Positions 1,168-54,098 of a stretch of DNA of 64,000 bases are shown here, piece after piece. Each line of letters begins with the position of its first letter. Within the stretch, counting starts at the first letter, position 1. Source of the stretch: Acidobacteria bacterium Ga0077551 (lineage in GTDB: Bacteria; Pseudomonadota; Alphaproteobacteria; Caulobacterales; Hyphomonadaceae); contig LNFC01000022.1 of assembly GCA_001464545.1 (NCBI GenBank), positions 62,001-126,000 on the forward strand, given 5' to 3'. The position numbers were made by a program, and so were the translations under genes. The notes beneath the pieces were generated by a model. It worked only from the letters and a program-made list of their open reading frames with translations. It ran no database searches and had not been told where the DNA came from.

Positions 1168-1930
1168 CATGGGTGTACTTCTTCGGTTTGTTTTCCTAGT
1201 GGTGCTGGCGGTCCTGTTCGCCGGCGCAGCGCAGGCTCAACAAGCCGTACCCGGACAAATTCCGGCCCTCGAAGGCCTGATCAATCCGAACGGCGATGGC
1301 CAGCTCAGCAGCTCGGTCATCCAGCTGCTGCTTCTGGTGTCTGTGCTCAGCCTTGTGCCGGGCATCGCCATGATGGTCACCTGCCTTCCGTTCATGGTGA
1401 TCGTCTTCTCGTTCATGCGTCAGGCGATCGGTGTGCAGCAGGCGCCGCCCAACATGATGATCATGGCGCTGGCCATGTTCCTGACCTTTTTCGTGATGGA
1501 GCCGGTCTTCATGTCGGCCTGGGAAAACGGCATCACGCCATATATGAACGGTGTGCTGGACGAGCAGCAGGCCTGGAAACTGACCACGGACCCGTTCCGC
1601 GAGTTCATGATGAGGCGGACGGATCCCGAAGCGTTGATGACGCTGGCTGACGCGGTCAACCGGCCGCTGGTCGAAGGTGAGGCGCCGTCCTTCTCGCTGC
1701 TTTCGACCGCCTTCATGCTGAGCGAAATCAAGCATGCGTTTCAGATAGGTTTCGTTATCTTCCTGCCCTTTATGGTGATCGACCTGGTGGTGGCTTCGGT
1801 ACTGATGGCCGTCGGCATGATGATGGTGCCGCCGACTGTCGTGTCGCTGCCGTTCAAGCTGGGCTTTTTCGTACTGGCAGATGGCTGGCTGAAAATAACT
1901 GAAGCTGTGCTCAGAGGTTATGGATCATGA
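1160..1930 (+). CDS. fliP: Flagellar type III export gate protein FliP
   Basis: An integral membrane protein of 253-256 residues with a cleavable signal peptide (hydrophobic stretch ending AGAAQAQ), then transmembrane segments and the FliP family signatures around TCLPFMVIVFSFMRQA and the C-terminal MMMVPPTVVSLPFKLGFFVL. FliP forms the core of the export pore with FliQ and FliR. Two starts are possible, ATG 1160 (overlapping the fliN stop) or ATG 1169; the in-frame TTG at 1139 lies too deep in fliN. The stop overlaps the ATG of fliG by four bases. fliQ and fliR sit 23 kb away in the same cluster. Confidence 0.95.
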   Translation: MPSMGVLLRFVFLVVLAVLFAGAAQAQQAVPGQIPALEGLINPNGDGQLSSSVIQLLLLVSVLSLVPGIAMMVTCLPFMVIVFSFMRQAIGVQQAPPNMMIMALAMFLTFFVMEPVFMSAWENGITPYMNGVLDEQQAWKLTTDPFREFMMRRTDPEALMTLADAVNRPLVEGEAPSFSLLSTAFMLSEIKHAFQIGFVIFLPFMVIDLVVASVLMAVGMMMVPPTVVSLPFKLGFFVLADGWLKITEAVLRGYGS

Positions 1931-3036
1931 ATACGCCGACCAAGCGCGATCGTGGCGATGCAGCGCCGGGGAGGGCGGGCCGCAAATCCAATATATCTGC
2001 CTCACAGCGCGCGGCGGTGATCATTACGCTGCTTGGCGAGACTGCGGCCAAGCCGATTGTGCAGAAGCTTGACGATGCGGCGCTTGCAAAGGTGGTGACC
2101 GCGATCGAGAACATCTCGACCCTGGCGAGGGAAGAACTGGTCGAGATCGTGATCGATTTCCTCACCCAGTTGCGGCAGAGTTCCGGGTCGTTGCGCGGTG
2201 GCCCGGAGAAGGCGCGGGAAGTCATGTCCGGCGTGCTGGATCCCGGCCGGATGAACGCGCTGTTCGGTTCTGCGCCCGTCGAAATGGACCTGTCCTTCCT
2301 GGAAACGGCGGACGTCTGGACACGTCTTGCGCAGAGGGAGGCGCCCGAGATTGCCGAGTATCTGGGCTCGATGACTCCGAACATCATCGCCCTGGTCCTC
2401 CGTAAGCTGAATACCGGCATGGTCTCGAGCATTCTGTGCCTTCTGCCGGATGAAAAGGTCAGCCCGACGCTCGGATACATGGTCGAAGCACCAAAGATCG
2501 ATCCGAGCATCGAACCTGCCGTCGAGCGCATGATCGAGATCGAGTTTCTCAACAAGGATCAGGACGTCTCGGAGAACAACGACGACCATCTCGGCGTGAT
2601 CGGTGAAGTGCTGAGCCTGATTCCGGCGCAGAAGCGCAACAACCTGATCGACTTCCTGCGCACGTCGCATGAAGCCAAGCTGCCGATCATCGAGAAGGGC
2701 TTGTTCACGATCGATGCGCTACCTGAGATCCTCCCGCGCAATGCGGTGACCGTGGTGTTCCGCCAGATCGACAATGCGGTCATGGTCAAGTTGCTGGCCA
2801 GTCTGCGGGACACCTATCCGCCGATACTTGAATTCCTGCTGAGCAATATCTCCTCCCGCATGGCCGATTCGATGCGCGAAGAGTTCAAGGACATGCCGGC
2901 GTTCAACGCTGATCAGGTGGAGACCCTGCAGCGCGAATTCCTGACAACGCTGATGGACCTCAGCCGCCGCGGTGTCATCACGATGATCCGCGCGACGGAC
3001 AAGAACGACGAGGCGAGCGTCCCGCTCCCTGGATAG
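1927..3036 (+). CDS. fliG: Flagellar motor switch protein FliG
   Basis: A 369-residue protein with an N-terminal domain beginning at about residue 25 (SQRAAVIITLLGE), a middle armadillo domain and a C-terminal domain that contacts MotA. The C-terminal part shows the FliG pattern of ISSRMADSMREEF followed by the helix before the RRGVI end. FliG transmits stator torque to the rotor. An ATGA overlap with fliP indicates translational coupling. It is the last gene of this + strand block and converges with flgI; the first 24 residues are basic and low-complexity, longer than in enteric FliG. Confidence 0.93.
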   Translation: MNTPTKRDRGDAAPGRAGRKSNISASQRAAVIITLLGETAAKPIVQKLDDAALAKVVTAIENISTLAREELVEIVIDFLTQLRQSSGSLRGGPEKAREVMSGVLDPGRMNALFGSAPVEMDLSFLETADVWTRLAQREAPEIAEYLGSMTPNIIALVLRKLNTGMVSSILCLLPDEKVSPTLGYMVEAPKIDPSIEPAVERMIEIEFLNKDQDVSENNDDHLGVIGEVLSLIPAQKRNNLIDFLRTSHEAKLPIIEKGLFTIDALPEILPRNAVTVVFRQIDNAVMVKLLASLRDTYPPILEFLLSNISSRMADSMREEFKDMPAFNADQVETLQREFLTTLMDLSRRGVITMIRATDKNDEASVPLPG

Positions 3037-5257: not shown

Positions 5258-6706
5258 TCAGAGCTCCATCAACGTATTGATCATCTGACCGGCAATCTCG
5301 ATGACACGCGCATTGGCGGCATAGGCCTGCTCGATGAGCATCAGGTCCTGAAGCTGGTTGTCGATGTCGACCCCGGTTTCGGACTGTTCGGCTTCGACCA
5401 GGATATTGTACTGGGTTTCGGTCGAGGACAGCACGGACTCGTTGTAGATGCGCGCCTGTCCGGAAAATGAGGCAATCTGCGCGGCCATTTCGGTTGCGGA
5501 AAAGCTGCCCTGAAAGCCGGTTGCGCCGAGGGCCTGGACGGCGGTGAATGCGTCGAACATCCCTTTCAGGATAGTCTGGTTTCCTGGCGCGCCGGTCGTT
5601 GCGGCGCCAATCCCGTCGCGCAGGCGCCAGAGTGCGCCGCCCTGGCCGGGATCGACCGCGGCATTGATCGAGATCCGGCCGGCCAGGCCCGCTCCGCCGA
5701 GGGTATCGGTGTCGATGAAAAGGCCCGGATCGCCGGGCGTCTTTGTCGGGTCGATGGCATCGTCGGAAAGACGGCTGACCAGCTGGCTGGCGATCGTGTC
5801 CAGCTGCTCGCTGAGGGCAGGCAGATCCTGATCGCGCAAAGTGAACAGGGCGCCGAACAGGCCGCCCGACACGGCGCCGAACGAGGCCGCGCCCGGCGTC
5901 AAATTCACGCCGTCGACGGTCAGGCCAGACAGGTCGCCGCCGGCCAATGTCTCGTTTGGACCGAAGGCTGCAGACGGCGTAAACTGAATTTCGCGGGCGC
6001 GTCCTGCGAGGAGGAAAACCCCCTCTGTTGTCAGAACTTCAATTGTCCCGTGGTCGCGCTCCACCGTTTGTATCGGGAGGTACTCGGCAATCGTGTCGAG
6101 CACCCGCTGGCGCTCGTCCATGAGGGCGGCGGCTTCGCCGCTGGCCCGGTTGATGCCGGAAAGGCGGCCATTGATTTCCTCAATCTGCTTCAGAGCCGAA
6201 TTCACAACGTCAACACCGTTGCCGATCTCGCGGTCCGCTTCTGCGCGCTGGGTTGTGACCATGTCGGACAGGCTGTTGAGTTCGTCCGTGATGTTCTGCG
6301 CGGCTTGCAGAAGGCCTGCTGCCGCACTGGTCGATTCAGGGGTTGCAATCGCGCGGGAGAGCGCCGTTTCGAAGTCGGAAAAGGTCTTGAACAAACCATC
6401 CCCTTCGGATGTATCGCCGATACGGGCCGAGATCGATTTCCAGGTTGAGGCGAGTACGCTGGCCTGTGCCACGTCGCTGGTCAGTTCCCTCCGTTGGGCC
6501 TTGATGGCCGTATCGTTGACCCGTCCGACACCGTCCGATCGGACCCCGGCCGACGTTCCGCCAAGAACAACTTCGCTCAATGTGATTGAGCGGCGTACAT
6601 AGCCGGGCGTCGTCGCGTTGGCGACGTTCGTCGCCACGGTCTCGGCCCTCAGGCTGCTGACCTGAAGGCCGGACCGGGCGGCGTTGATGGCGCTGGAGAG
6701 GCTCAC
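5258..6706 (-). CDS. flgK: Hook-filament junction protein FlgK (HAP1)
   Basis: A 482-residue axial protein starting at GTG. The N-terminus has the rod/hook family motif (ATNVANATTPGYVRRS at about 27-42), followed by the FlgK coiled region and a C-terminal heptad helix ending IEIAGQMINTLMEL. FlgK is the first junction protein on the completed hook. It lies 29 bases downstream of flgE in the same operon. No frame problems are visible. Confidence 0.95.
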   Translation of the reverse strand: MSLSSAINAARSGLQVSSLRAETVATNVANATTPGYVRRSITLSEVVLGGTSAGVRSDGVGRVNDTAIKAQRRELTSDVAQASVLASTWKSISARIGDTSEGDGLFKTFSDFETALSRAIATPESTSAAAGLLQAAQNITDELNSLSDMVTTQRAEADREIGNGVDVVNSALKQIEEINGRLSGINRASGEAAALMDERQRVLDTIAEYLPIQTVERDHGTIEVLTTEGVFLLAGRAREIQFTPSAAFGPNETLAGGDLSGLTVDGVNLTPGAASFGAVSGGLFGALFTLRDQDLPALSEQLDTIASQLVSRLSDDAIDPTKTPGDPGLFIDTDTLGGAGLAGRISINAAVDPGQGGALWRLRDGIGAATTGAPGNQTILKGMFDAFTAVQALGATGFQGSFSATEMAAQIASFSGQARIYNESVLSSTETQYNILVEAEQSETGVDIDNQLQDLMLIEQAYAANARVIEIAGQMINTLMEL

Positions 6707-6735
6707 TTGGAAGTCCGCCTAGCCGTTTCGGGGCT

Positions 6736-8040
6736 CTATCGCTTCAGGTTCGTTGTTTCCTGAAGCATCTCGTCTACCGTTTGAACGATTTTTGCGTTCG
6801 ATGTGTAGGCGCGCTGCGTCTCGATGAGATCCGTCAGTTCCTGCGCGATGTCAGTGGTCGACTCCATCAGCGAGTATCCCGAGATACCCCCAACCGGGCC
6901 GGCATTGGCATCCCAGAGGTAAAGGTTGCCGCTGGACGCCGAGACAGTATAGGCCTGCGAATCGAGCGCCGTCAGGCCGTTCATGTTAGGAACATCGCCG
7001 ATCGGGATCTGGTAAAGTGTCCGGCGGAAGCCCGAGTCGTAGATGGCCCGCAGATACCCTTGATCATCAATCTCCACAGACTGAAGGTCGCCGATCGGCG
7101 CGCCATCCTTGGCCACAGATGTGGGCGCGAAGGGCGCCGCAAGCTGGGTGATGCCCGCGCTGTCGTTCAGACGGCCAATGAACACCGAGACGGGGCCATG
7201 CGGCAGCGTGATCGAAACCACACCGGACGCCGCGTCATAGGTTGCGCCATTGGTGGCCGCCACACTTGAGATCCGGCCGCCAGAGGTTGCGTTGTCTGTG
7301 AATACGATGTCGAGATCGCCGACCGATCCGGCGACCGTGTCCGCGCTGTCCTCGATCGTCACGGCCCATTGGTTGCTTGCGCCGGTGGCGGGCACAGTGG
7401 GAGCGAAGACGAAGGTCAGGGTCTGAGCCCGGCCGAGGTTGTCGAAGTATTCGACGGGCAGCGAATAGTTCCCGCCGGTTCCGCCAGCCCGTGTCGCGTC
7501 GGCCGGAATGTTGATGCCGAGGTCGATGCGGGAGGTCGGAGTCGCCGTGAACTGCGAGGTGGCAACGTTGACCGCCTCCAGGTTCACACCGCTGTTGCGG
7601 CTGACGTTTCCGATATTGCCCTGACCATCGGCTGGCCAGCCAAGGAGAAACAGGCCGCTTTGCGTTCTCAGGTTTCCGTTCTGGTCCGCAAAGAACGATC
7701 CGGTCGGTGTCAGCATCAGCCGGCGCTCTGATGAAAGTTCGTTCACGCCTGTACGATCGGTAACCGGAATGAGCCCCCTGCCGGAAACGGCGATATCCGT
7801 CGCGCTGCCCGTGGAAATCAGCGAGCCTGTTGCTCCGATGTCCTTGTACGTCGCAACTTCAACACCGCCTGCCGCATACGCGGAAGAGCGTGTTTGCAGA
7901 ACCATGCTCGAGAAGTCGACAAGGCTACGTTTGTAACCATTCGTTCCGGAGTTGGCGATGTTGTCGGAAATGGTGGCGAGGCGGGTGCCGTTGACACTCA
8001 AGCCCATAACCCCGGCGTTCAGGGACGATGAAATGCTCAT
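6736..8040 (-). CDS. flgE: Flagellar hook protein FlgE
   Basis: A 434-residue hook subunit. I start it at ATG 8040 (MSISSSLNAGVMGLSVNG), which has a good AGGAG about nine bases upstream; the reading frame extends 28 codons further but without family similarity. The N-terminal motif LATISDNIANSGTNGYKRS, the middle beta-rich domain and the C-terminal helix (ELTDLIETQRAYTSNAKIVQ) are all present. It is the first gene of the flgE-K-L-I operon. Hook length would be set by FliK, and the hook cap by FlgD, both encoded near 16-18 kb. Confidence 0.95.
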   Translation of the reverse strand: MSISSSLNAGVMGLSVNGTRLATISDNIANSGTNGYKRSLVDFSSMVLQTRSSAYAAGGVEVATYKDIGATGSLISTGSATDIAVSGRGLIPVTDRTGVNELSSERRLMLTPTGSFFADQNGNLRTQSGLFLLGWPADGQGNIGNVSRNSGVNLEAVNVATSQFTATPTSRIDLGINIPADATRAGGTGGNYSLPVEYFDNLGRAQTLTFVFAPTVPATGASNQWAVTIEDSADTVAGSVGDLDIVFTDNATSGGRISSVAATNGATYDAASGVVSITLPHGPVSVFIGRLNDSAGITQLAAPFAPTSVAKDGAPIGDLQSVEIDDQGYLRAIYDSGFRRTLYQIPIGDVPNMNGLTALDSQAYTVSASSGNLYLWDANAGPVGGISGYSLMESTTDIAQELTDLIETQRAYTSNAKIVQTVDEMLQETTNLKR

Positions 8041-8112
8041 ATCTGGTTGCTCCTGCGTCAGATAAGGGCGCAATCTGGAGCGAAGTCGTAAACAAGCGGA
8101 TAACCAAAGTTC

Positions 8113-29496: not shown

Positions 29497-29551
29497 AGCT
29501 AAACGTATGTCAGAATTCTGGCGGGTTTGCCGATTCGAGGAGCAGGTTTCT

Positions 29552-31777
29552 ATGTTTAAGGCATTTGGTGGCAAGTCCGAGGATGGGTCTGAGGGTTACT
29601 TTCAGGCGATCATGCGCTCCCAGGCAGTAATTGAGTTCAAGCCGGACGGAACAATCCTGACGGCGAACGACAACTTCCTGAGAACTTTGGGCTACTCCCT
29701 GGGCGAAATCGCCGGCCGCCACCATTCCATGTTTGCAACGCCCGAGTTTGCGGCAAGCGCAGACTATCGCAGCTTCTGGGATCGGCTGAACCGCGGCGAA
29801 TTCATCGCCGACAAGTTTCTCCGAATTGGCAAAAGTGGCCGGCAAGTCTGGATCCAAGCGTCTTACAACCCTGTTTCCGACAAGACCGGCAAGGTCGTGA
29901 AAGTGGTGAAATTTGCCACCGACATCACGTCCCAGGAAGAAGCCGCCATCGCTGCTGCTGCCAAAAGCGCGGCGCTTGAGGCCTCGCAGGTTGCCACAAT
30001 GGTTGTGGATCGCGACTTCAAGGTTACATACGTTAACAAGGCCACGCAGGACCTCATCGCAAGCCATGGCGAAGTCTTCAAGAAGCATTTTCCAGGCTTC
30101 GATCCCCATAAAATGCTCGGCATGAACATTGATATATTCCATAAGAATCCGGCGCACCAACGCCAGATGCTTTCGGATCCCTCGAGATTGCCACACCGGA
30201 CAGACATCACCATTGGTGACCTAAAGTTTGCCCTCGAAGTAGGGGCCGTGTTCGACGCAAAGCGGCAATATGTCGGCAATGTACTCCAGTGGAACGACGT
30301 TACTCAAACACGCTTGTATAACGGAATGATTCAGGCGCTCGACCGCTCTCAGGCAATCATCGAGTTTACCTTGGATGGCATTATCGTTCAGGCAAATGCA
30401 AACTTCTGCCAGACGGTTGGTTATACGCTTGACGAGATCAAGGGCAAGCACCACTCGATGTTCGCCCTGCCAGAGTATGCCCGCAGCGCGGAGTACCGCG
30501 CGTTCTGGGACAAGCTGAGAAACGGCGAATTTGAACGGGGCAAGTACCCACGCCTCGCCAAGGGGAATCGCGAGATCTGGATCGAGGCGACTTACAACCC
30601 CATCAGGGACGCCACCGGCAAACCTTACAAAATCGTCAAGTTCGCAACCGACATCACGCAGATCGAGGCCGACCGCAAGGCGGGCGAAGCCGAGCGAGCC
30701 GCCCGCGCCGAAGAACAGTCGAGGGTGGTCAGCGGCCTCGCCGATGCACTTGGCCATCTGGCCGACGGCAATCTGACCGCGCGCATCAGTCAGCCCTTCC
30801 CGGGCGAGTATGAAAAGCTGCGGAGCGACTTCAACGAAGCCATGGGCAAGCTGCAGGACGCGATGAAAACCATCATCGTCAACGCCGGCGGCATCCATTC
30901 CGGTGCAGGTGAAATCAGTCAGGCCTCTGACGACCTCTCGCGCCGCACGGAACAGCAGGCGGCCAGCCTCGAGGAGACCGCAGCGGCCCTTGACGAAATC
31001 ACCGCGACCGTCCGCAAGACTGCGGAAGGTTCCAAGCAAGCCAACGGCGTTGTCGCAACGACCCGCTCCGACGCTGAAGCGTCTGGTCACATTGTGCAGG
31101 AAACGGTCGCTGCCATGGCGGAGATCGAGAAATCCTCGAAGCAGATTTCACAGATTATCGGCGTAATCGACGAGATCGCCTTCCAGACCAACCTGCTGGC
31201 GCTTAACGCCGGTGTCGAAGCGGCACGGGCAGGCGATGCGGGCAGGGGCTTTGCGGTCGTCGCGTCCGAAGTTCGGGCGCTCGCGCAAAGGTCTTCCGAG
31301 GCCGCGAAGGAAATCAAGGGTCACATTTCGGCGAGCTCGCAGCACGTTGAAACCGGCGTCGAACTCGTCGGCGAAGCCGGCAAGGCGCTGCATAAGATCG
31401 TGATCAAGGTCAACGAGATCAGCGGTCTGGTGTCGGAGATCGCCGCTTCGGCCCAGGAGCAGGCGACGGCTCTGGCGGAAGTGAACACTGCAATCAACCA
31501 GATGGACCAGGTCACCCAGCAGAACGCAGCCATGGTCGAGCAGTCGACGGCGGCCAGCCACTCGCTGACCCAGGAAGCCGAAGAACTGATCAGCCTGGTC
31601 TCGCGCTTCCAGACTGGGATTGCCCCGTCCCAGACGCAGACCAACGCCCGCGCAAAGGCGAAGCCGAAGAGCAACGCCTACCCACCCGTGCTGCAGCAGC
31701 GCGAACGGGTCGCCCGGTTTGCGTCAAATAGCGGCAGCGCCGCACTCAAGGCCGACGACGATTGGCAGGAGTTCTAG
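29552..31777 (+). CDS. Soluble chemoreceptor with three PAS domains (MCP)
   Basis: A 741-residue cytoplasmic methyl-accepting protein with no membrane segment. It has PAS domains at about 20-125, 130-245 and 250-365 (first and third share the DITxxE end), a HAMP-like segment at about 391-435 and an MCP signalling domain at about 448-690 whose hairpin tip reads EIAFQTNLLALNAGVEAARA. I start at ATG 29552, preceded by GAGGAG at good spacing; the frame opens at ATG 29507. The last five residues, DWQEF, match the xWxxF pentapeptide that tethers CheR and CheB. It probably senses a cytoplasmic or redox signal. Confidence 0.9.
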   Translation: MFKAFGGKSEDGSEGYFQAIMRSQAVIEFKPDGTILTANDNFLRTLGYSLGEIAGRHHSMFATPEFAASADYRSFWDRLNRGEFIADKFLRIGKSGRQVWIQASYNPVSDKTGKVVKVVKFATDITSQEEAAIAAAAKSAALEASQVATMVVDRDFKVTYVNKATQDLIASHGEVFKKHFPGFDPHKMLGMNIDIFHKNPAHQRQMLSDPSRLPHRTDITIGDLKFALEVGAVFDAKRQYVGNVLQWNDVTQTRLYNGMIQALDRSQAIIEFTLDGIIVQANANFCQTVGYTLDEIKGKHHSMFALPEYARSAEYRAFWDKLRNGEFERGKYPRLAKGNREIWIEATYNPIRDATGKPYKIVKFATDITQIEADRKAGEAERAARAEEQSRVVSGLADALGHLADGNLTARISQPFPGEYEKLRSDFNEAMGKLQDAMKTIIVNAGGIHSGAGEISQASDDLSRRTEQQAASLEETAAALDEITATVRKTAEGSKQANGVVATTRSDAEASGHIVQETVAAMAEIEKSSKQISQIIGVIDEIAFQTNLLALNAGVEAARAGDAGRGFAVVASEVRALAQRSSEAAKEIKGHISASSQHVETGVELVGEAGKALHKIVIKVNEISGLVSEIAASAQEQATALAEVNTAINQMDQVTQQNAAMVEQSTAASHSLTQEAEELISLVSRFQTGIAPSQTQTNARAKAKPKSNAYPPVLQQRERVARFASNSGSAALKADDDWQEF

Positions 31778-31982: not shown

Positions 31983-32852
31983 ATGAATCACTTGGCCGCC
32001 TCGCCCCGCTCACGCGTCTTGATTGAAGGTGAATACGCTTTAACCCAGCGCAATTTCGATCAGATCGCTGCCTTCCTCAGAGATGAGACCGGCATCGCGC
32101 TGACCGAAGCCAAAGCGACGCTAGTCTACTCGCGCCTGGCCAAACGTATCCGCAAACTTGGCCTCGCCAGCTTCGACGAATACTGCGCCTTTGCCGTCAG
32201 CCCTGCAGGAGCAGGGGAGCGTACCGAGATGATGGCGGCGCTGACCACCAACGTCACCCGGTTCTTCCGTGAACCCCACCACTTCGACCATTTCCGCGCC
32301 AGTGTCGGCCCGCGACTTATCGAGGCGGCGAAAAGCGGAGCGCGTGTTCGACTTTGGTCGGCCGCCTGTTCGAGCGGCGAAGAGCCTTACTCGCTGGCTC
32401 TGACGATCCTTGGGCTTTGCCCGGACATAGGACGCTACGATCTTCGCATACTCGCCAGCGACATAGATCCCAACATCGTGGCGAAAGCCAAGGCGGGCCG
32501 CTACCGCGAGGATGCCGTTGCGCCCATTCCTGCCGCGCTGAGAACGCGTTGGCTCAGCCGAGATGGCGAACGCGACGGTATGTGGACCGTCCGCCCGGAA
32601 GTGCGCGATCTCATCGTGTTCAAGGAACTCAATCTCATCGGTGATTGGCCGATGCGCGGACAGTTCGACGCAATCTTTTGCCGCAACGTTGTCATCTATT
32701 TCGAAGAGGCGACCCAGGCGTTCCTGTGGAACCGATTTAAGAATGCGCTGACGCCGGAGGGCAGGCTGTACATCGGTCATTCCGAGCGCGTTGATGTCGC
32801 CGGGTATGAAAGCGACGGACTGACTGTCTACAAACTGTCAGGGGCGCGCTGA
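31983..32852 (+). CDS. cheR: Chemoreceptor methyltransferase CheR
   Basis: A 289-residue enzyme that methylates receptor glutamates using S-adenosylmethionine. The N-terminal helical domain is followed by the SAM site ([18 protein letters not shown]), then [20 protein letters not shown] and the FCRNVVIYF block. AGGAG lies 14 bases before ATG, a rather long spacing. It begins 205 bases after the receptor gene and shares one base with the cheB start, so the order receptor-cheR-cheB suggests a dedicated adaptation module. Confidence 0.95.
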
Positions 32853-33868
32853 TGAAGAAAATTCGCGTTCTCGTAGTCGACGACTCCGCAACGATCCGTG
32901 GGCTGATAATTGCGGCTCTCTCCGCAGATTCAAGCATCGAAGTTGTCGGCACGGCTGGCGATCCCATCGAGGCGCGCGCGGCGATCAAGGAACTCAATCC
33001 TGACGTCATTACCCTCGATGTCGAGATGCCGAAGATGAGCGGCATCGAATTTCTCGAGAAGATCATGCGGCTGCGGCCGATGCCGGTGATCATGGTATCG
33101 ACCCTGACGCAGGCAGGCGCCTCTGTCTCGATCGACGCGTTGGCGCTGGGCGCCTTCGATTGTGTCGGCAAGCCCGCCTTCGAGGATCTGGTCGACAAGG
33201 TCAAAGCGGCTGCAAGGGCGCACGTGAGGGGAGCGGGAGACCGCGCAGCCCCCAGTCCGCGTCAGGCCGGATATCGTCCGGCAAACAAGATCATCGCCAT
33301 CGGCTCTTCGACGGGCGGCGTGGAAGCGCTGATGCAGGTCTTGGCGCCTTTCCCGGAGAATTGTCCGCCTACGGTAATCACCCAGCATATGCCGGCGAGT
33401 TTCACGGCCAGCTTCGCAGCGCGCCTCGACAGGACTTGCGCACCGAAGGTGCAGGAAGCGAGTGACGGCGCGCCACTATTGCCCGGCCACGTCTACCTCG
33501 CGCCCGGCGGTGCGGCCCACCTTGAAGTCGCGAACGGACTTCAGCCGCGCTGCAGGCTGCGAGAGGGGCCAACGGTCAATGGCCACCGCCCGTCAGTGGA
33601 CGTCCTCTTCGATTCCGTAGCCGACGTTTACGGTCGCCGGGCAGTCGGCGTCATTCTGACCGGCATGGGACGGGACGGCGCCGCAGGATTGCTCGCAATG
33701 CGCAAGGCAGGCGCGAAAACCATAGGTCAGGACGAAGTGACCAGCGTCGTCTATGGCATGCCGAAGTCAGCATTTGAGGCCGGCGCGGTAGAGCAGCAGT
33801 TGCCGCTCGGCGCCATCGGACAAGCGACGCTCGACCTTTGCGCGCTTGAAGCCAGGGGAGCGGCGTAA
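32852..33868 (+). CDS. cheB: Chemoreceptor methylesterase CheB
   Basis: A 338-residue response regulator-enzyme. The receiver (residues 1-125) has acidic D10/D11, phosphoacceptor D56 ([10 protein letters not shown]) and K near GKPAF. The C-terminal esterase shows the catalytic triad motifs [10 protein letters not shown] (Ser), [10 protein letters not shown] (His) and [11 protein letters not shown] (Asp). It demethylates receptors when phosphorylated by CheA. The stop overlaps the start of the 41-codon ORF that follows (TAATG). It ends in -AA. Confidence 0.96.
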
Positions 33869-33993
33869 TGTCTGATGCTGTCCTGAGCCCTTTCCTGCTT
33901 AAAACAATGAAGACTACTCCGCAGAAAACTGGCTTTCAAAGGCTGCAGCAACTTTCTGATAACTATCAGAGAACCTATGGAACGCGCGCATGA
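33868..33993 (+). CDS. Unrecognised 41-residue ORF between cheB and cheD
   Basis: A short frame beginning [20 protein letters not shown] and ending QRTYGTRA. Its ATG overlaps the cheB stop (TAATG) and its TGA overlaps the cheD ATG (GCATGAG), so the operon reads without any gap. A strong AGGGGAG lies seven bases before the start, whereas cheD has no good ribosome binding site of its own. It may be a real small protein or a coupling leader for cheD. It is basic and has no membrane helix. I recognise no family. Confidence 0.65.
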   Translation: MSDAVLSPFLLKTMKTTPQKTGFQRLQQLSDNYQRTYGTRA

Positions 33994-34553
33994 GCCAGGT
34001 CGTCTCACCTGCTGCCCCCCCGCCACGCCGGGAGCGGTTGGTTCATGTAATCCAGGGTGAACACGGCGTAAGCCGGGATCCCGGCGTGATCTACACGACC
34101 ATTCTCGGTTCGTGTGTCGCGACCTGTATATGGGATCCTCTAGCCCGCGTTGGCGGGATGAACCACTTCCTTTTGCCGGGCGGCGAAGGGTGTGGAGATT
34201 CCATGCGTTACGGCGTCAACTCGATGGAACTTCTGATCAATGGTTTGCTTCAGAACGGCGCTGCACGGTCGCGCCTGCAGGCCAAACTGTTCGGCGGCGC
34301 CCACGTTATCAAGAACCTCAGTGATGTGGGCGCTCAGAACGCCGAGTTCGCCACTCGGTTTCTGAACGACGAAGGCATTGCGTGCGTCGCAAAGAGTCTC
34401 GGCGGCAATCGCGCGCGGCGTGTGCGCTTCTGGCCTACCGATGGCCGTGCGGGACAAATGCTCCTCGAGTCGACGTCGCCGGAAGTGATGATCGCCGAGC
34501 GCGCCCGCGTGGTGCCAGCTCCGGTCGAAGATGGATCGGCCGAACTCTTCTAG
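33990..34553 (+). CDS. cheD: Chemoreceptor glutamine deamidase CheD
   Basis: A 187-residue enzyme that deamidates receptor glutamines. The catalytic Cys and His are in TTILGSCVATCIWDP and GGMNHFLLPG, followed by YGVNSMELLINGLL and AKLFGGAHVI, all family hallmarks. It starts within the stop of the small upstream ORF. It is the last + strand che gene and converges with a minus operon; its last residues, SAELF, resemble the end of the convergent helical protein (GAELF). Confidence 0.94.
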   Translation: MSQVVSPAAPPPRRERLVHVIQGEHGVSRDPGVIYTTILGSCVATCIWDPLARVGGMNHFLLPGGEGCGDSMRYGVNSMELLINGLLQNGAARSRLQAKLFGGAHVIKNLSDVGAQNAEFATRFLNDEGIACVAKSLGGNRARRVRFWPTDGRAGQMLLESTSPEVMIAERARVVPAPVEDGSAELF

Positions 34554-34763
34554 GGCAACGTCACCGGGTCGTCCGGCACAAAGGCCGAAGACCCGGGCCG
34601 GCCGCGCGCAAACGCCTGGTACGAGCTGGGCGGTACCGAAAGTGCGATTTGACGAAGTGGGGTGGGGGAGCGCCTCGGTCTTGGCGCAGCGCGGCGTTGG
34701 TGATCAAAGGACGGATCGTTTCGGACGCCGCGTGAGGCGTTCGCGGGACTAGAACAGTTCGGC
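34539..34763. repeat. Inverted 15-bp repeat ending two convergent che genes
   Basis: GCCGAACTCTTCTAG (34539-34553) forms the last codons and stop of cheD. The same sequence with one change, GCCGAACTGTTCTAG on the minus strand (34749-34763), ends the facing gene. They bracket a 195-base gap with no gene. The repeat may reflect a shared C-terminal peptide (AELF) or a DNA-level inverted repeat. Confidence 0.75.
34564..34596. terminator. Hairpin downstream of cheD
   Basis: CCGGGTC (34564-34570) and GACCCGG (34590-34596) can pair, with an inner CGGC/GCCG stem around ACAAAG. It begins 11 bases after the cheD stop in the gap between convergent operons. There is no T-run, so a terminator role is likely only by position. 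Confidence 0.4.
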
Positions 34764-35126
34764 TCCAGTTGGCACATCACTCTCAGCATACGGAACGCCG
34801 AGGCCGCGCAATGCGTCGCGAACGGCATGGAGGCGCACTTGATCAAGTGCTTTGCCGATGTTGATCACTTCACCGGAAGGCGCCGTTTCCAGCGCGCTCG
34901 TGAACGCCGCAATGGACCCAAGTGTCTGCGAGACCCGGTCGATCTCCTGCAGACGGCTGATCAAAGATGCGGTCAGGAACGTGTCTGACTGCAGACTGGA
35001 AGACAGCGCTTCCTGAAAGTCATTGCACGTATGTTCGAGCTCACGGATAATCGATCCGAGCCGCGCCAGAAGCAGGGACGGCGCAACTTCCGATTCAAAG
35101 CATGAAGTCACGTTCTCGGCAATCAC
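34749..35126 (-). CDS. Unrecognised helical protein of the che operon
   Basis: A 125-residue, mainly helical protein with no signal peptide, opening at GTG 35126, two bases after the stop of the second cheY gene; the ribosome binding site is weak, so the start is uncertain. It contains SRLQEIDRVSQTLGSIAAFT-type amphipathic helices and could form a four-helix bundle. I cannot assign a family. Caulobacter has small che-operon proteins of unknown role in similar places (CheE, CheU), but homology is not shown here. It ends GAELF, like the facing CheD. Confidence 0.6.
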   Translation of the reverse strand: MIAENVTSCFESEVAPSLLLARLGSIIRELEHTCNDFQEALSSSLQSDTFLTASLISRLQEIDRVSQTLGSIAAFTSALETAPSGEVINIGKALDQVRLHAVRDALRGLGVPYAESDVPTGAELF

Positions 35127-35128
35127 GA

Positions 35129-35515
35129 CTAGAGCCGGCCTACAACGGCTTCGACAGTTTTGCGCAGGCTTTCCGGCGTGACCGGTTTGGGCAGGAAGTT
35201 GTTCATGCCCAGGCGCTGTCCTTCGGTGACGACCGTTGAGTCAGTCGTGCCAGATACGAGAATGAAACCGGTGCGCTGCAGCTGTCCCGAGGCGCGTATA
35301 GCCTTGAGCAGATCCAGTCCGCTTTTGCCGGGCATGTTGTAGTCGGAGACAACCAGGTGAACCGGTGTCTTCAGCATGAAGCTCAACGCTCCATCACACG
35401 TCGTTTCGGAAAAGATATTCTTGATTCCGCACTGTTCGAGTCCATTGATCAAGACGCCCCGGCTCGCAGCCATGTCGTCGACAACAAGAATTCGGAGGCT
35501 GTCCTTGATCGACAT
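35129..35515 (-). CDS. Single-domain response regulator, second CheY
   Basis: A 128-residue receiver with no output domain. Acidic D13/D14 (LRILVVDDMAASRG), phosphoacceptor D58 (LVVSDYNMPGKSG), the Ser/Thr position (ILVSGTTDS) and Lys in FLPKPVTPE are all intact. I start it at ATG 35515 with AAGGACG upstream. It lies downstream of cheW after a gap of about 240 bases holding hairpins. It may compete with the first CheY for phosphate from CheA or act as a phosphate sink; which one binds the switch is unknown. Confidence 0.85.
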   Translation of the reverse strand: MSIKDSLRILVVDDMAASRGVLINGLEQCGIKNIFSETTCDGALSFMLKTPVHLVVSDYNMPGKSGLDLLKAIRASGQLQRTGFILVSGTTDSTVVTEGQRLGMNNFLPKPVTPESLRKTVEAVVGRL

Positions 35516-35697
35516 CTTTCGTCCTTTTGGGCGTGAACCAGCGCGATCCACTTGGCGCTGATTATCTCGGTTCTCGTTGATATGAGGTTACGTTGCTGTA
35601 CAAATTGGTGAAAGCGGCATTTAGGAAAAGTGCCCCGGAGTGTGGTACCCGAAACTCTGGCAGTCCTTACTTGATCCGTCTCGGGATGATGCCCGCA

Positions 35698-35734
35698 CCC
35701 GCTCCCTGTCCGGCCCGCAGCAGCAGGGAACGGG
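35698..35734 (-). terminator. Hairpin downstream of cheW
   Basis: CCCGCTCCCTG (35698-35708) and CAGGGAACGGG (35724-35734) form ten base pairs with one C-A mismatch. A second perfect palindrome, CCTCCGCGGAGG, is at 35739-35750, directly after the cheW stop. Both would interrupt transcription between cheW and the second cheY, but there is no clear T-run. Confidence 0.45.
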
Positions 35735-35753
35735 TTAGCCTCCGCGGAGGAAA

Positions 35754-36224
35754 TCAGGCGGCCGCTGACATCTGGGCGGCGGGCGCCAGGGTTGTCAGGT
35801 CGATCACCCGGATCATGTTGCCCTCAAGGGCGACCAGGCTCTTGAAGAAGGCCTTGGAAGTTTCCGAGGCAATCTCAGGGGTTGGCTGAAGGATGCTGTC
35901 CTTCAGCGAAAGAATGTCGGAAACGGCTTCTACCACAAGGCCGATCAGCTGATCACCGATCTGCACGACGATCGTCACGTTGGAGGGCGTCGGATCGGTT
36001 GAAGGCATGCCGAGCCGTGCGCCCAGATCCACGATCGGCAGAACCGTTCCGCGCAGGTTGATGACGCCGCACACATATGAGGGCGAGTGAGGGATTGGCG
36101 TCGGTTTTGCCCAGCCGCGAATTTCGCGTACGGCCATGATGTCGACGCAGAAGGTCTGGCCGCTGATCGTGAAGGAAATGAACTTGTTCTCATTCATCGG
36201 GGGCGTCTCATTCTTGTCGTGCAT
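35754..36224 (-). CDS. cheW: Chemotaxis coupling protein CheW
   Basis: A 156-residue CheW-domain protein linking receptors and CheA: FISFTISGQTFCVDIMAVRE, then VCGVINLRGTVLPIVDLGAR and VVEAVSDILSLKD. I start at ATG 36224, preceded by AAGGAAG. The frame can open at TTG 36242, which overlaps the end of the upstream CheW-like segment of cheA. It is followed by hairpins. It ends MSAAA. Confidence 0.94.
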   Translation of the reverse strand: MHDKNETPPMNENKFISFTISGQTFCVDIMAVREIRGWAKPTPIPHSPSYVCGVINLRGTVLPIVDLGARLGMPSTDPTPSNVTIVVQIGDQLIGLVVEAVSDILSLKDSILQPTPEIASETSKAFFKSLVALEGNMIRVIDLTTLAPAAQMSAAA

Positions 36225-36238
36225 GTGTACTTCCTTAC

Positions 36239-38295
36239 TCAAGCTGCCTCTGACAGGTCCGCTGTCATGCTTTTCCTGGAGACTATCCGGTCAACGTCAA
36301 GAATTAGTGCAATTCTTCCGTCGCCAAGGATGGTTGCGGCAGCTATTCCGGGTACGGATCCATAATTTTCTTCGAGACCTTTGATCACGACCTGTCGCTG
36401 GTCGAAGATCTCGTCCACCAGAAGCGCACTCAGGGCACTGTCTTCCGTCTGGGTGAGCACGACGATCTGGTTGTCGACTTTCGTCAGGGGGGCACGGTAA
36501 CCGAGCGTCGCCCCGACATCCACCAGTGGAACGAAGGCGCCCCGGATAAAGACGACTTGCCCTTCGGTCGACAGATAGTGAATATCTTCCGGTTTTGGCT
36601 TGAGAGTTTCCACGATGTCCGTAAGCGGAATGATTGTGGTCTGCCCCGCAATCCGGACAACCATTCCGTCGAGGATCGCGAGTGTCAAAGGAAGACTGAT
36701 GATGAAAGACGAGCTGCCTGGATCGATTTCTTGACGACATCCATTCCGACGCCGCGGCCCGAAAGGTTCGACACTTCCGAAGCCGTCGAGAAGCCCGGCA
36801 TGAAGAGGAGGTTGTCGATCTCGCCGTCGGTCAATTGTTCGTCGGCCGAGATCAATCCCTTTTCGATAGCAATCTGACGCACTCTCGGGCGATTGATCCC
36901 CGCGCCGTCGTCGCTTACCTCGATGATCACCCTGCCGGACCGGTGCATTGCAGAAAGCCGGACAACGCCCTCGCGGGGCTTGCCTGCCGCCTCGCGTTTT
37001 TCGCGGGATTCCAAGCCGTGATCGACAGCATTCCGGATCATGTGGGTCAGCGGATCTGACAGCCGCTCGATGACGATCTTGTCGACTTCGGTCGACTCGC
37101 CTTCGGTGACCAGGCGGACGTCCTTGCGCGTTGCGTTGGAGGCCTCGCGAACAATACGCGACATTCTCTGGAAGAGCGGCTTCACGGGCTGAGCGCGGAT
37201 CGACATCACGCTTTCCTGAATGTCGCGGGTGAGTTGCTTGAACTCATCGAGACCGCCGGCCAGCGGGGAGTTCGGCGGGAACCCGGCATCGAAGACGGCT
37301 TGAGAAAGCATCGACTGGTTGATGACCAGTTCGCCGATCAGGTTGATCAGCCGGTCGACCCGGTCGAGTTCTACCCGGACGGTGGCTTTTGGCGCTTTCC
37401 CGGCATCCTTTCCGTTGGCGTCGGCGGAGGCGCCCGGCGACGGACCGTGATCGGAATCTTCGTGCAAGGCTTGCAGAGAGGCAGCGGGCGCCTGTTTGCT
37501 CGGCGTCTGCGTTTCAACGGGCGCCGGGCGCGGCGCGCTGCTGACAGCGGTCCGCTCGATTTTCAGATCGCACTCATCTTCCACGAACTCGAATACTTCC
37601 CGGATCGCGGTTTCGGTGACCATGGCCGGCATTGTGAGGGACCATTTCAGGTAACTCTTTTCGCAGTCCATATGATCCAGCAAAAGGAGATCGCTCCAGT
37701 CGCAGGTGACCGAATAGTCGCCCAGAAGCCGGAGCGCCCGCAGCAACAGGACAGAGTCGTTTCCGCGCGCAAACAGGTTCTCGTGCGGTGAAAGTGTAAT
37801 GCGCCAGTTGCCGTCCTCGGCGGGAGGCGGGGGAGGGGCATCGAAGTCAAGACTGAAGTCGAGCGCTATGGGTTCGAAGACAAAGTTTTCGGCGCTCGGT
37901 GCAGCATTGTCGCTGTCGATGAACGATTCCAGCTCGGAGATCAGGTGATCGATTTGCTCGCCATCGACCTGATCGCCGGATTGGGCCGAGGCCACCAGAT
38001 CTGCCAGAAAATCCGCAGAACGCAGAAACAGCGCAATCAGGTCTGTCTGAGGCTCAAGCCGTCCCGCCCGAACTTCGTCCAGCGTCGTCTCGAACTTGTG
38101 TGCGAACCGGACCAGGTCGTTGAGCGCGAAGGCGCCCGCGCCGCCCTTGATCGAATGAACAGCCCGGAAAACCGAGTTCACCTTCTCCGGATCGCGGTCG
38201 CCATCCCGAATGGAGGTGAGGCCCGTCTCAAGATCCTGAAGCAAGTCTTCGCACTCAAGGAAGAACGTCTCCCGGATTTCGTCCATCGTGTCCAT
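36239..38295 (-). pseudogene. cheA: Chemotaxis histidine kinase CheA, frameshifted with internal deletion
   Basis: The kinase is split into two frames. The first (38295-36685) encodes HPt (His47 in AVHSIKGGAGAF), a linker, the dimerisation helix (DRVDRLINLIGELVINQSML) and the ATPase (N box IRNAVDHGLE, G1 SDDGAGI, GRGVGMDVVK), then ends ARLSSSVFL-stop. The second (36688-36239) begins in SLPLTLAILDGMVVRIA and carries the CheW-like P5 domain; its only start is a TTG without ribosome binding site. In other CheA proteins about 25 residues separate GMDVVK from LPLTLAI; here KSIQ runs almost directly into GSSSFIIS, so 13-14 codons are missing and the frame is lost. Either a real mutation or an assembly error. 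Confidence 0.85.
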
Positions 38296-38317
38296 TGGCA
38301 ATTCCGTTTCGGTTAGT

Positions 38318-38683
38318 TCAGGCAGCTACACGATGAATGATGCTGATCAGTTTTTCTTTGTTGAATGGCTTGACGATCCATCCGGTTGCACCGGCGTCAC
38401 GCGCGCGCTGCTTCAGCTCGGTGGCGCTCTCGGTCGTCAGTGTAAGGATGGGAACGCCCTTGAAGTCTTCCCGGGCGCGGACAGCCTCGATGAAGCCGAA
38501 GCCGTCCATCCGGGGCATGTTGATATCAGTGATGATGACCTGGGGATTCACGGCGTCCATGACCTCAAGGCCATGAATTCCGTCTTCTGCAAGGTGCACT
38601 TCGAAGCCAGCCTCGGCGAGCGCGAGGCGGATCATGTCGCGCATGGTTCTTGAATCGTCGACCGCCAAAATTCTAAGCGACAT
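38318..38683 (-). CDS. cheY: Chemotaxis response regulator CheY
   Basis: A 121-residue single receiver with ILAVDDSRTMRDMIR, phosphoacceptor D53 (IITDINMPRMDGFGF), TLTTES and the conserved Lys in WIVKPFNKEKL. It starts in the stop of the STAS gene (TAATG) and lies 23 bases upstream of cheA, the classical place for the CheY that signals to the motor. Its target here would be the FliM-like protein, whose usual docking segment is missing. It ends in RVAA. Confidence 0.93.
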   Translation of the reverse strand: MSLRILAVDDSRTMRDMIRLALAEAGFEVHLAEDGIHGLEVMDAVNPQVIITDINMPRMDGFGFIEAVRAREDFKGVPILTLTTESATELKQRARDAGATGWIVKPFNKEKLISIIHRVAA

Positions 38684-38976
38684 TATGAAGCCCCCTGTTC
38701 TTGTGAAAATGCAGTGTCGAGCCCGGTGAACTCCAGGGCCTGAATCATGGGTTGGGACGGCGAAACCAGACTGAAACCCTGTTTGTCAGAGTCCCAGGTC
38801 AGCTTGGCGCTCAAAAGCAACTGCAGGCACCCGCCACCAATGTGGCCGACCTTGCTGGCATCAATGACAACTGGGTGTCCGCGCCGTTCGAGCAGGGCGG
38901 CCTGGAGTTTGGGCGCCGCTTTGGCGCCTAGGTCCGCATCAAGAACGAGCGAGTTTTCAGCTACGAGTTCCGTCAA
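38683..38976 (-). CDS. STAS-domain protein heading the che operon
   Basis: A 97-residue STAS domain protein starting at TTG 38976 with AAGGGAG eight bases upstream. The fold pattern is clear (SLVLDADLGAKAAPKLQAAL, then HPVVIDASKVGHIGGGCLQL). The site that carries the phosphorylatable Ser in anti-anti-sigma factors (usually D-S-S/T-G) reads GGG, so it is unlikely to be regulated by phosphorylation. STAS proteins head some alphaproteobacterial che operons with unknown function. It is cotranslated with cheY. Confidence 0.82.
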   Translation of the reverse strand: MTELVAENSLVLDADLGAKAAPKLQAALLERRGHPVVIDASKVGHIGGGCLQLLLSAKLTWDSDKQGFSLVSPSQPMIQALEFTGLDTAFSQEQGAS

Positions 38977-52790: not shown

Positions 52791-53498
52791 TCAGCGGCTT
52801 CCTGGTTCGTAATTGGCGCCGTGCAGTTCGCTCAACGGCTCGGTCGTATATGACGCGTCGGGGGCCGGTTGATAAGTGGGGGGCGGGGGCGCTTCAGTCG
52901 TGATCGGCGCAGCCGGCCGTCCGGACGCATCGCGGATGCGGACATACGAGACGACCTGAGCGACGCCGCCGACAACGCTGGCCTCTTCGGCCGCCGCTCG
53001 CAGTTCTTCGGTGTCCCGGGCGATGCCCATCAGGTAGACGACGCCGCCATAGGTCTCGATATTGAAGTTGACGCTCTTGACCTTGCTGGAGCCGATCAGG
53101 CGCGCGCGCACCCGGCCGGTGATGATCTCGTCCGAGACGTTCGACATGAATCCGCCGGGCGGCTCAATCCGCACTTCGTTGGCCACGTCCACCGTGCGCG
53201 AAGAGCTCCAGGCTATGCCTTCCGCGAAGGTGCGGTCTTCCGGCTCGTTCACCCGGCCGGACAGAAGCACCAGCCCATTGGCCACTTCAACATCGACCTC
53301 GGCAAACCGGGCCCCGCTCTCGTTCAGCAGCTTCGCCTTGATCTCGTTGGAGGCGGTGGCGTCGTCGAGCGCCTCGCCCATCGTCTTTTCCTGCACGGAG
53401 GTCAGGCCAACCGCGCCGGCTGTCCCGATCACGGCGGCGGCGCAGCCCGGCAAGGCGAGGGTGGCAAGCAGGCAAGGTAGCACAAGAACGTTACGCAT
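52791..53498 (-). CDS. BON-domain lipoprotein (DolP/OsmY type)
   Basis: A 235-residue exported lipoprotein: MRNVLVLPCLLATLALPGC ends in an LPGC lipobox. Two BON domains follow at about 47-115 (ATASNEIKAKLLNESGARFA) and 125-195 (DEIITGRVRARLIGSSKVKS, then EEASVVGGVAQVVSYV). A Pro-rich tail closes the protein. In E. coli the double-BON lipoprotein DolP supports outer-membrane integrity. Position before gshB suggests an envelope or stress role, which is inference. Confidence 0.87.
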   Translation of the reverse strand: MRNVLVLPCLLATLALPGCAAAVIGTAGAVGLTSVQEKTMGEALDDATASNEIKAKLLNESGARFAEVDVEVANGLVLLSGRVNEPEDRTFAEGIAWSSSRTVDVANEVRIEPPGGFMSNVSDEIITGRVRARLIGSSKVKSVNFNIETYGGVVYLMGIARDTEELRAAAEEASVVGGVAQVVSYVRIRDASGRPAAPITTEAPPPPTYQPAPDASYTTEPLSELHGANYEPGSR

Positions 53499-53693
53499 GA
53501 GGGGATGTCCTGGAAGTCACGGTGGAGGAAACTTCATTAAGCGGAGGATAGGGCTAAACGGCGGCATTCTCCAAATGAAACCCTGTATAGCTTATGAACG
53601 AACGGCGCGCCTGCGTGCATCTGCGCCTTTTTGCTGGTTGCGGGAGGCGGCGCGTGTTAGGATTTAGGCATCGTCGCAAAAGGAGCCCTTGCC

Positions 53694-54098
53694 CTGTCAT
53701 CCGCCAAATCCCGGGTTGAGCCCCCAAAAAACGTCTCGCTTGCCGACATCAAGGTGCTGGCCGAGGCTCTCTCGAAAGTCCTCGAAGACGACAAGGCTGA
53801 AGACCTTGCCTTCATTGAGCTTCAGGGCAAATCCTCTCTCGCCGATTTCATGATCATCGCTTCGGGCCGTTCCGGACGGCACGTGGCGGCGCTTGCCGAA
53901 CACGTCGCGCAGGAGGCCAAACGCCTGACCGGCCGCCCGGCCAGCGTCGAAGGCATGGCCAATGCCGACTGGGTGCTGATCGATACCGGAGACGTGATTG
54001 TCCACCTCTTCCGGCCTGAAGTGCGCGAATTCTACAATCTCGAAAAAATCTGGATGTCAGACACGTCGGCTCACCGGGCGCAGCGCGCGTCCTCCTGA
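53694..54098 (+). CDS. rsfS: Ribosomal silencing factor RsfS, apparent CTG start
   Basis: RsfS binds ribosomal protein uL14 and blocks subunit joining in stationary phase. The DUF143 core is clear (DDKAEDLAFIELQGKSSLAD, FMIIASGRSGRHVAALAEHV, then MANADWVLIDTGDVIVHLFR). Between the in-frame stop at 53658 and GTG 53754 there is no ATG, GTG or TTG. CTG 53694 is preceded by AGGAG at eight bases and gives a 134-residue protein. Starting at GTG 53754 would lack a ribosome binding site. The gene lies 3 bases before rlmH, the usual partner. Confidence 0.88.
   Translation: MSSAKSRVEPPKNVSLADIKVLAEALSKVLEDDKAEDLAFIELQGKSSLADFMIIASGRSGRHVAALAEHVAQEAKRLTGRPASVEGMANADWVLIDTGDVIVHLFRPEVREFYNLEKIWMSDTSAHRAQRASS

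Follow-up and report, generated by a model that had tools for sequence, protein, structure and literature searches.

A net 40-base loss, probably real and very recent, splits the only cheA found in a draft alphaproteobacterial genome

Does a bacterium whose che cluster appears complete still possess a working CheA? In the window, the 64,000-nucleotide stretch of DNA that we analyzed, cheA is read in two pieces that lie in different frames. An earlier note on this DNA had claimed that a small deletion shifts the frame where the ATPase domain ends, as either a real null or an assembly error. Comparison with a sister genome agreed with this claim in kind, place, and size, and the same two explanations are still the live ones. 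The locus is organized as follows:

36685..38301, minus strand: cheA 5′ piece, 538 codons; P1 (Hpt), P2-like region, P3 dimerization domain, and P4 ATPase domain cut at its end
36708..36724 (C22:98708-98724), minus strand: indel junction, net 40 bases below the sister
36239..36688, minus strand: cheA 3′ piece, 149 codons; P5 (CheW-like) domain in a different frame

Pfam searches located two elements of a functional CheA in the 5′ piece, the Hpt domain at residues 8–98 (PF01627, E 6.2e-16) and the dimerization domain, H-kinase_dim, at 306–368 (PF02895, E 2.3e-18). A complete ATPase domain and P5 within one chain are missing. The HATPase_c match covers profile positions 4–85 of 111, compared with 4–110 in the sister. 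The 538-residue frame ends with GRGVGMDVVKKSIQ followed by 10 residues and a stop, which places the stop 10 codons after KKSIQ and not 13 codons on, as had been claimed. The 149-residue frame encodes P5 from LTLAILDGM onward and carries a CheW domain at 8–138 (E 1.4e-25), in agreement with the proposal that the alternative frame is the P5 domain.

For the sister, we used locus L004, taken as contig 2 of genome G024 of the same genus; the two sequences are identical at the break. L004, a MAG contig, is labeled as an acidobacterium, yet it corresponds to an alphaproteobacterial genome of this genus, and the label looks wrong. The sister cheA is a single open frame of 708 codons from stop to stop, encoding a 700-residue CheA of the alphaproteobacterial che-cluster kind with all four Pfam domains, whereas the window copy is split at the end of HATPase_c. 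DNA identity between the two is ~96% on either side of the break (1552/1615 and 578/604 bases). Between these flanking matches, 3 window bases stand against 43 sister bases, leaving the window a net 40 bases shorter. The alignment proposed earlier as a check shows an unbroken sister frame, and the predicted loss of about 13–14 codons by a number of bases that is not a multiple of three is borne out. So is the spacing: from GMDVVK to LPLTLAI the sister has the expected 25 residues, and the joined window frames have ~12 (counted by eye; 12–13 had been given). The GG and GxG of the last ATPase motif were also said to be lost; of these, the last GxG glycine is apparently retained in the other frame.

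The spacing at this point is highly constrained among relatives. We scanned one genome for each species and obtained 65 related cheA loci. In 61 of these, the segment that starts at GRGVG and extends six residues past LPLT was exactly 45 residues long, a length that is absent from the window. The four loci unmatched by the motif pattern (L046, L064, L065, and L067) each stay in one frame across this point according to tblastn with the sister protein. In 60 of the 61 measured loci, the open frame through the motif spans 683 codons or more. The exception is L028 (Nereida ignava CECT 5292), whose frame is cut short by a different in-frame stop upstream of the motif; its cheA (~6001–8049) has this single stop in the P3 region and is otherwise continuous. 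Among the 65 loci, L028 provides a second case of a broken cheA, of independent origin. The frame-breaking lesion of the window is absent from its close relatives, as expected of a recent pseudogene. Another close locus is L005 of Henriciella mobilis (61% in the best segment); the sister and L005 both have STAS, cheY1, and cheW neighbors in common with the window cheA.

To place the lost residues in the fold, we modeled the sister protein with AlphaFold (mean pLDDT 79.3, pTM 0.55; 28-row alignment). The model contains the G2 helix at residues 520–529, followed by strands at 533–539 and 543–551. By this model, the window copy retains the G2 helix, lacks strand 533–539, and has strand 543–551 out of frame. 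The solved structures of CheA (1b3q, 1i58, and others) align with the sister across this part, whereas their match to the window piece ends at residues 529–533. We infer from established knowledge of the ATPase fold that the window CheA would be devoid of ATP-dependent autophosphorylation.

We consider it probable, at roughly 0.7, that a genuine frame-shifting indel (net −40 bases), very recent in origin, inactivates the sole cheA found in the draft. The competing explanation is an error of assembly or consensus, in which cheA is intact in the genome and its missing bases were dropped, for instance, at short palindromes or from a mixed population. We regard this as a distinctly less probable, although serious, alternative. 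Short palindromes are indeed visible by eye within the sister stretch, but its predicted fold is unremarkable (z −1.37), and hairpin-driven loss was rejected, as 20 of 200 shuffled versions fold at least as well. The 3 junction bases match the sister poorly, and the flanks are unique from k = 11–12 within the 386 kb read, with no misjoin-prone repeat at either. Across the whole draft genome, the 17-base junction pattern matches exactly once, at this locus, and with 3 mismatches at 11 sites. The odd junction bases, the unique flanks, and the single exact match together favor a real event over a repeat-driven misjoin.

The 259-kb sister contig has 211 ORFs of at least 100 codons; 198 of these passed the alignment limits (80% coverage, 75% identity), 7 fell under them, and 6 had no hit. 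Among the 198, cheA is the only one with a frame-breaking net difference greater than 2 nt, which argues against an assembly error. In the other ORFs, frame-breaking net differences amount to ±1 or ±2 nt, many of them near ORF ends or within doubtful ORFs, and some of these 1–2-nt differences may be sequence errors in either genome. One aligned ORF has insertions of 35 and 7 that sum with its other indels to a multiple of three.

In a looser, protein-based test with sister ORFs as queries against the window genome, 9 of 211 looked frame-split, 183 were full, 7 were partial, and 12 had no match; besides cheA, 8 of the 9 differ by 1–2 nt at the DNA level. In the reverse direction, 10 of 320 looked frame-split, 181 were full, 7 were partial, and 122 had no match, many of them probably because the window contig was read beyond the coverage of the sister contig. 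Four of these 10 were compared as DNA: three have 1-nt gaps. The fourth (G000 C22:165679-167763) is interrupted by large gaps at three places (125, 196, and 113 bases) and appears to represent two genes in a different arrangement. One flagged ORF near window positions 53068–54095 was discarded because it consists of an intact gene, which we take to be rsfS-like, with a spurious antisense stretch joined to it.

Substitutions between the two genomes bear on the age of the break. P3–P4 (229 codons) differs from the sister by 22 synonymous and no nonsynonymous changes, and P5 (149 codons) by 15 synonymous and none, with 149/149 residues identical. Together, these 378 codons contain 37 synonymous differences and no amino acid change. 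The entire P1–P4 part (529 codons) has 51 synonymous and 12 nonsynonymous differences, all 12 located in P1–P2 and the linkers. For orthologues on the contig, the median dN/dS is 0.07 (74 equal-length pairs; pairs of unequal length or <70% identity were left out). Had the 378 codons drifted since the split, ~60 amino acid changes would be expected on the window branch, and none was observed. By a simple estimate (Jukes-Cantor, changes unpolarized), the neutral time is at most ~5% of the branch. The absence of amino acid changes means that the lesion is either very young or an assembly error, since this is also what a healthy gene would show. The 378 codons show undiminished purifying selection. 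This fits only a very young break; relaxation marks older pseudogenes and is not needed in a very young one.

The synonymous divergence of cheA from the sister (dS 0.14) is lower than that of cheB (0.18), cheW and cheY2 (~0.30 each), and the contig median (0.20). Recombination in the region 32852–38301 is perhaps responsible.

We also considered whether the two frames could yield working products. Split CheA proteins exist: that of Rhodobacter sphaeroides is split between domains, and both parts are functional. In the window, ribosomes could restart at TTGA, where the TTG of the 3′ piece overlaps the upstream stop by 4 nt (36685–36688), so that P1–P4 and a free P5 would serve the array or a partial kinase. 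A gene that works as two proteins in this way is very improbable. The TTG is an ordinary leucine codon of the LPLTLA motif, no Shine-Dalgarno-like purine stretch lies directly 5′ of it (by eye), and the full conservation of P5 is equally explained by a young break. The precedent is CheA3/CheA4 of R. sphaeroides (PMC6829392), in which CheA functions are distributed over more than one polypeptide; the window resembles this system in having CheA functions on separate chains, but its break differs in lying inside the ATPase fold and not between domains.

Alternatively, programmed frameshifting might join the two long, conserved frames, which overlap at the break. The joined product would still be without ~13 residues of the ATPase fold, which are lacking in none of the 61 measured loci, and the sister cheA is one plain frame. 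We judge both a working split protein and programmed frameshifting to be unlikely, and the latter to have the smallest chance of all.

The draft genome of the window (3.08 Mb, 25 contigs) is 92% complete. A search for a second cheA, suggested in the earlier note, found none in this draft: the CheA query matched this locus only. A family search for further CheW-domain genes in the draft returned two matches, cheW and the P5 piece. Querying the draft with the sister DNA across the broken stretch revealed no intact copy; strong matches were confined to the flanks on either side (E 5.6e-18 and 4.4e-16). Of the 27 listed matches, the remaining 25 have E values of 0.008 or weaker, and we rejected them as cheA copies: they are short (the best spans 19 bases of contig 23, at E 0.008) and were taken as chance. 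A second cheA could still lie in the ~8% of the genome that is possibly missing.

The surrounding che genes and the neighboring receptor gene are as follows:

38683..38976, minus strand: STAS-domain protein, intact (profile and end-to-end sister alignment)
38318..38683, minus strand: cheY1, intact (profile and end-to-end sister alignment)
35754..36242, minus strand: cheW, intact; the sole free-standing CheW found in the draft genome
35129..35551, minus strand: cheY2, intact
34749..35126, minus strand: small che-cluster ORF (125 amino acids), possible CheT/CheZ-like phosphatase (sub-threshold)
33990..34553, plus strand: cheD, intact
32852..33868, plus strand: cheB, intact
31983..32852, plus strand: cheR, intact
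29507..31777, plus strand: PAS-MCP chemoreceptor, intact

All nine aligned end to end with the sister. Their full length would equally be expected if the cheA break were an assembly error.

The small ORF has no Pfam match at E 0.01. It gives a sub-threshold, colinear match to the NCBIfam CheT family (E 0.16), and in L005 and L007, where small ORFs also lie by these genes, they share a DRx[ST]Q segment as well as an xLF close to or at the C terminus. We take DRx[ST]Q to fit the DxxxQ phosphatase motif of CheZ and CheT. Based on these sequence features, the ORF is possibly a divergent CheY-P phosphatase. The CheD C terminus reads ELF in both the window and L005. The MCP contains PAS domains and ends in DWQEF, which resembles the CheR-tethering pentapeptide.

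If the lesion is real, its consequences would run as follows. A net loss of 40 bases, with 3 poorly matching bases left at the joint, would shift the cheA frame, and translation would terminate 10 codons into the wrong frame. Owing to this stop, the ATPase domain would be without the strand that follows the G2 helix, and P5 would not be attached; the domain that docks to receptors and CheW would thus be separated from the kinase. With autophosphorylation abolished, phosphotransfer to CheY or CheB would also be absent. The receptors would be disconnected from CheY, and swimming would proceed without receptor bias. The remaining che genes would have had no time yet to decay. Judging from its gene content, the cell probably swims without steering.

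Finally, we surveyed the genus. Among its 42 genomes, including that of the window, a CheW-type domain was detected in 4, an MCP signaling domain in 6, and FliG_C in all 42; in the 37 genomes with at least 90% completeness and at most 5% contamination, the counts are 4, 5, and 37. Two FliG_C matches occur in 39 of the 42. The window itself contains a FliG_C protein (1927–3036, plus strand, 369 amino acids, E 2.5e-13), a weaker match than the copy on contig 9 (E 1.2e-30). The difference between CheW-type domains (4/42) and FliG_C (42/42) indicates that lack of chemotaxis is common in the genus. Most of its species probably have a motor, as judged by FliG alone, and no recognizable CheW-type chemotaxis.

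The CheA proteins of the genus fall at two places in a 68-row tree, with the window and its sister beside Henriciella and those of G008 and G055 apart. From the nearest CheA we deduce a kinship with Hyphomonadaceae. The supported branches force at least two changes, and several long branches were flagged, that of G055 included. The two placements fit separate gains or uneven loss. In the same tree, the CheA of a contig labeled “Nocardioides marinus” (L030) grouped with Rhodobacterales, and this label looks wrong.

Whole flagellar and chemotaxis gene sets have been lost in Caulobacterales (PMC12700997). There, behavior genes are gone from probably related bacteria, whereas in the window one gene is cut and FliG and the other che genes are kept. 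Among the titles and abstract openings of the literature matches listed, we recognized no description of this cheA lesion or of chemotaxis loss in the genus, and a word search of PMC7200025 found no chemotaxis terms.

The cheA break is ordinary gene decay that involves no new mechanism and is informative mainly as a loss that is possibly at its first step. We tentatively propose, at a little under even odds, that it represents the first step in losing a species' sole chemotaxis system, with FliG and the other che genes still intact. For annotation, this genome should not be credited with working chemotaxis despite its full che cluster. If the break is real, it dates the loss of chemotaxis to the very recent past, and, if the proposal is true, the lineage would allow one to test the timing and sequence in which bacteria give up chemotaxis rather than motility.
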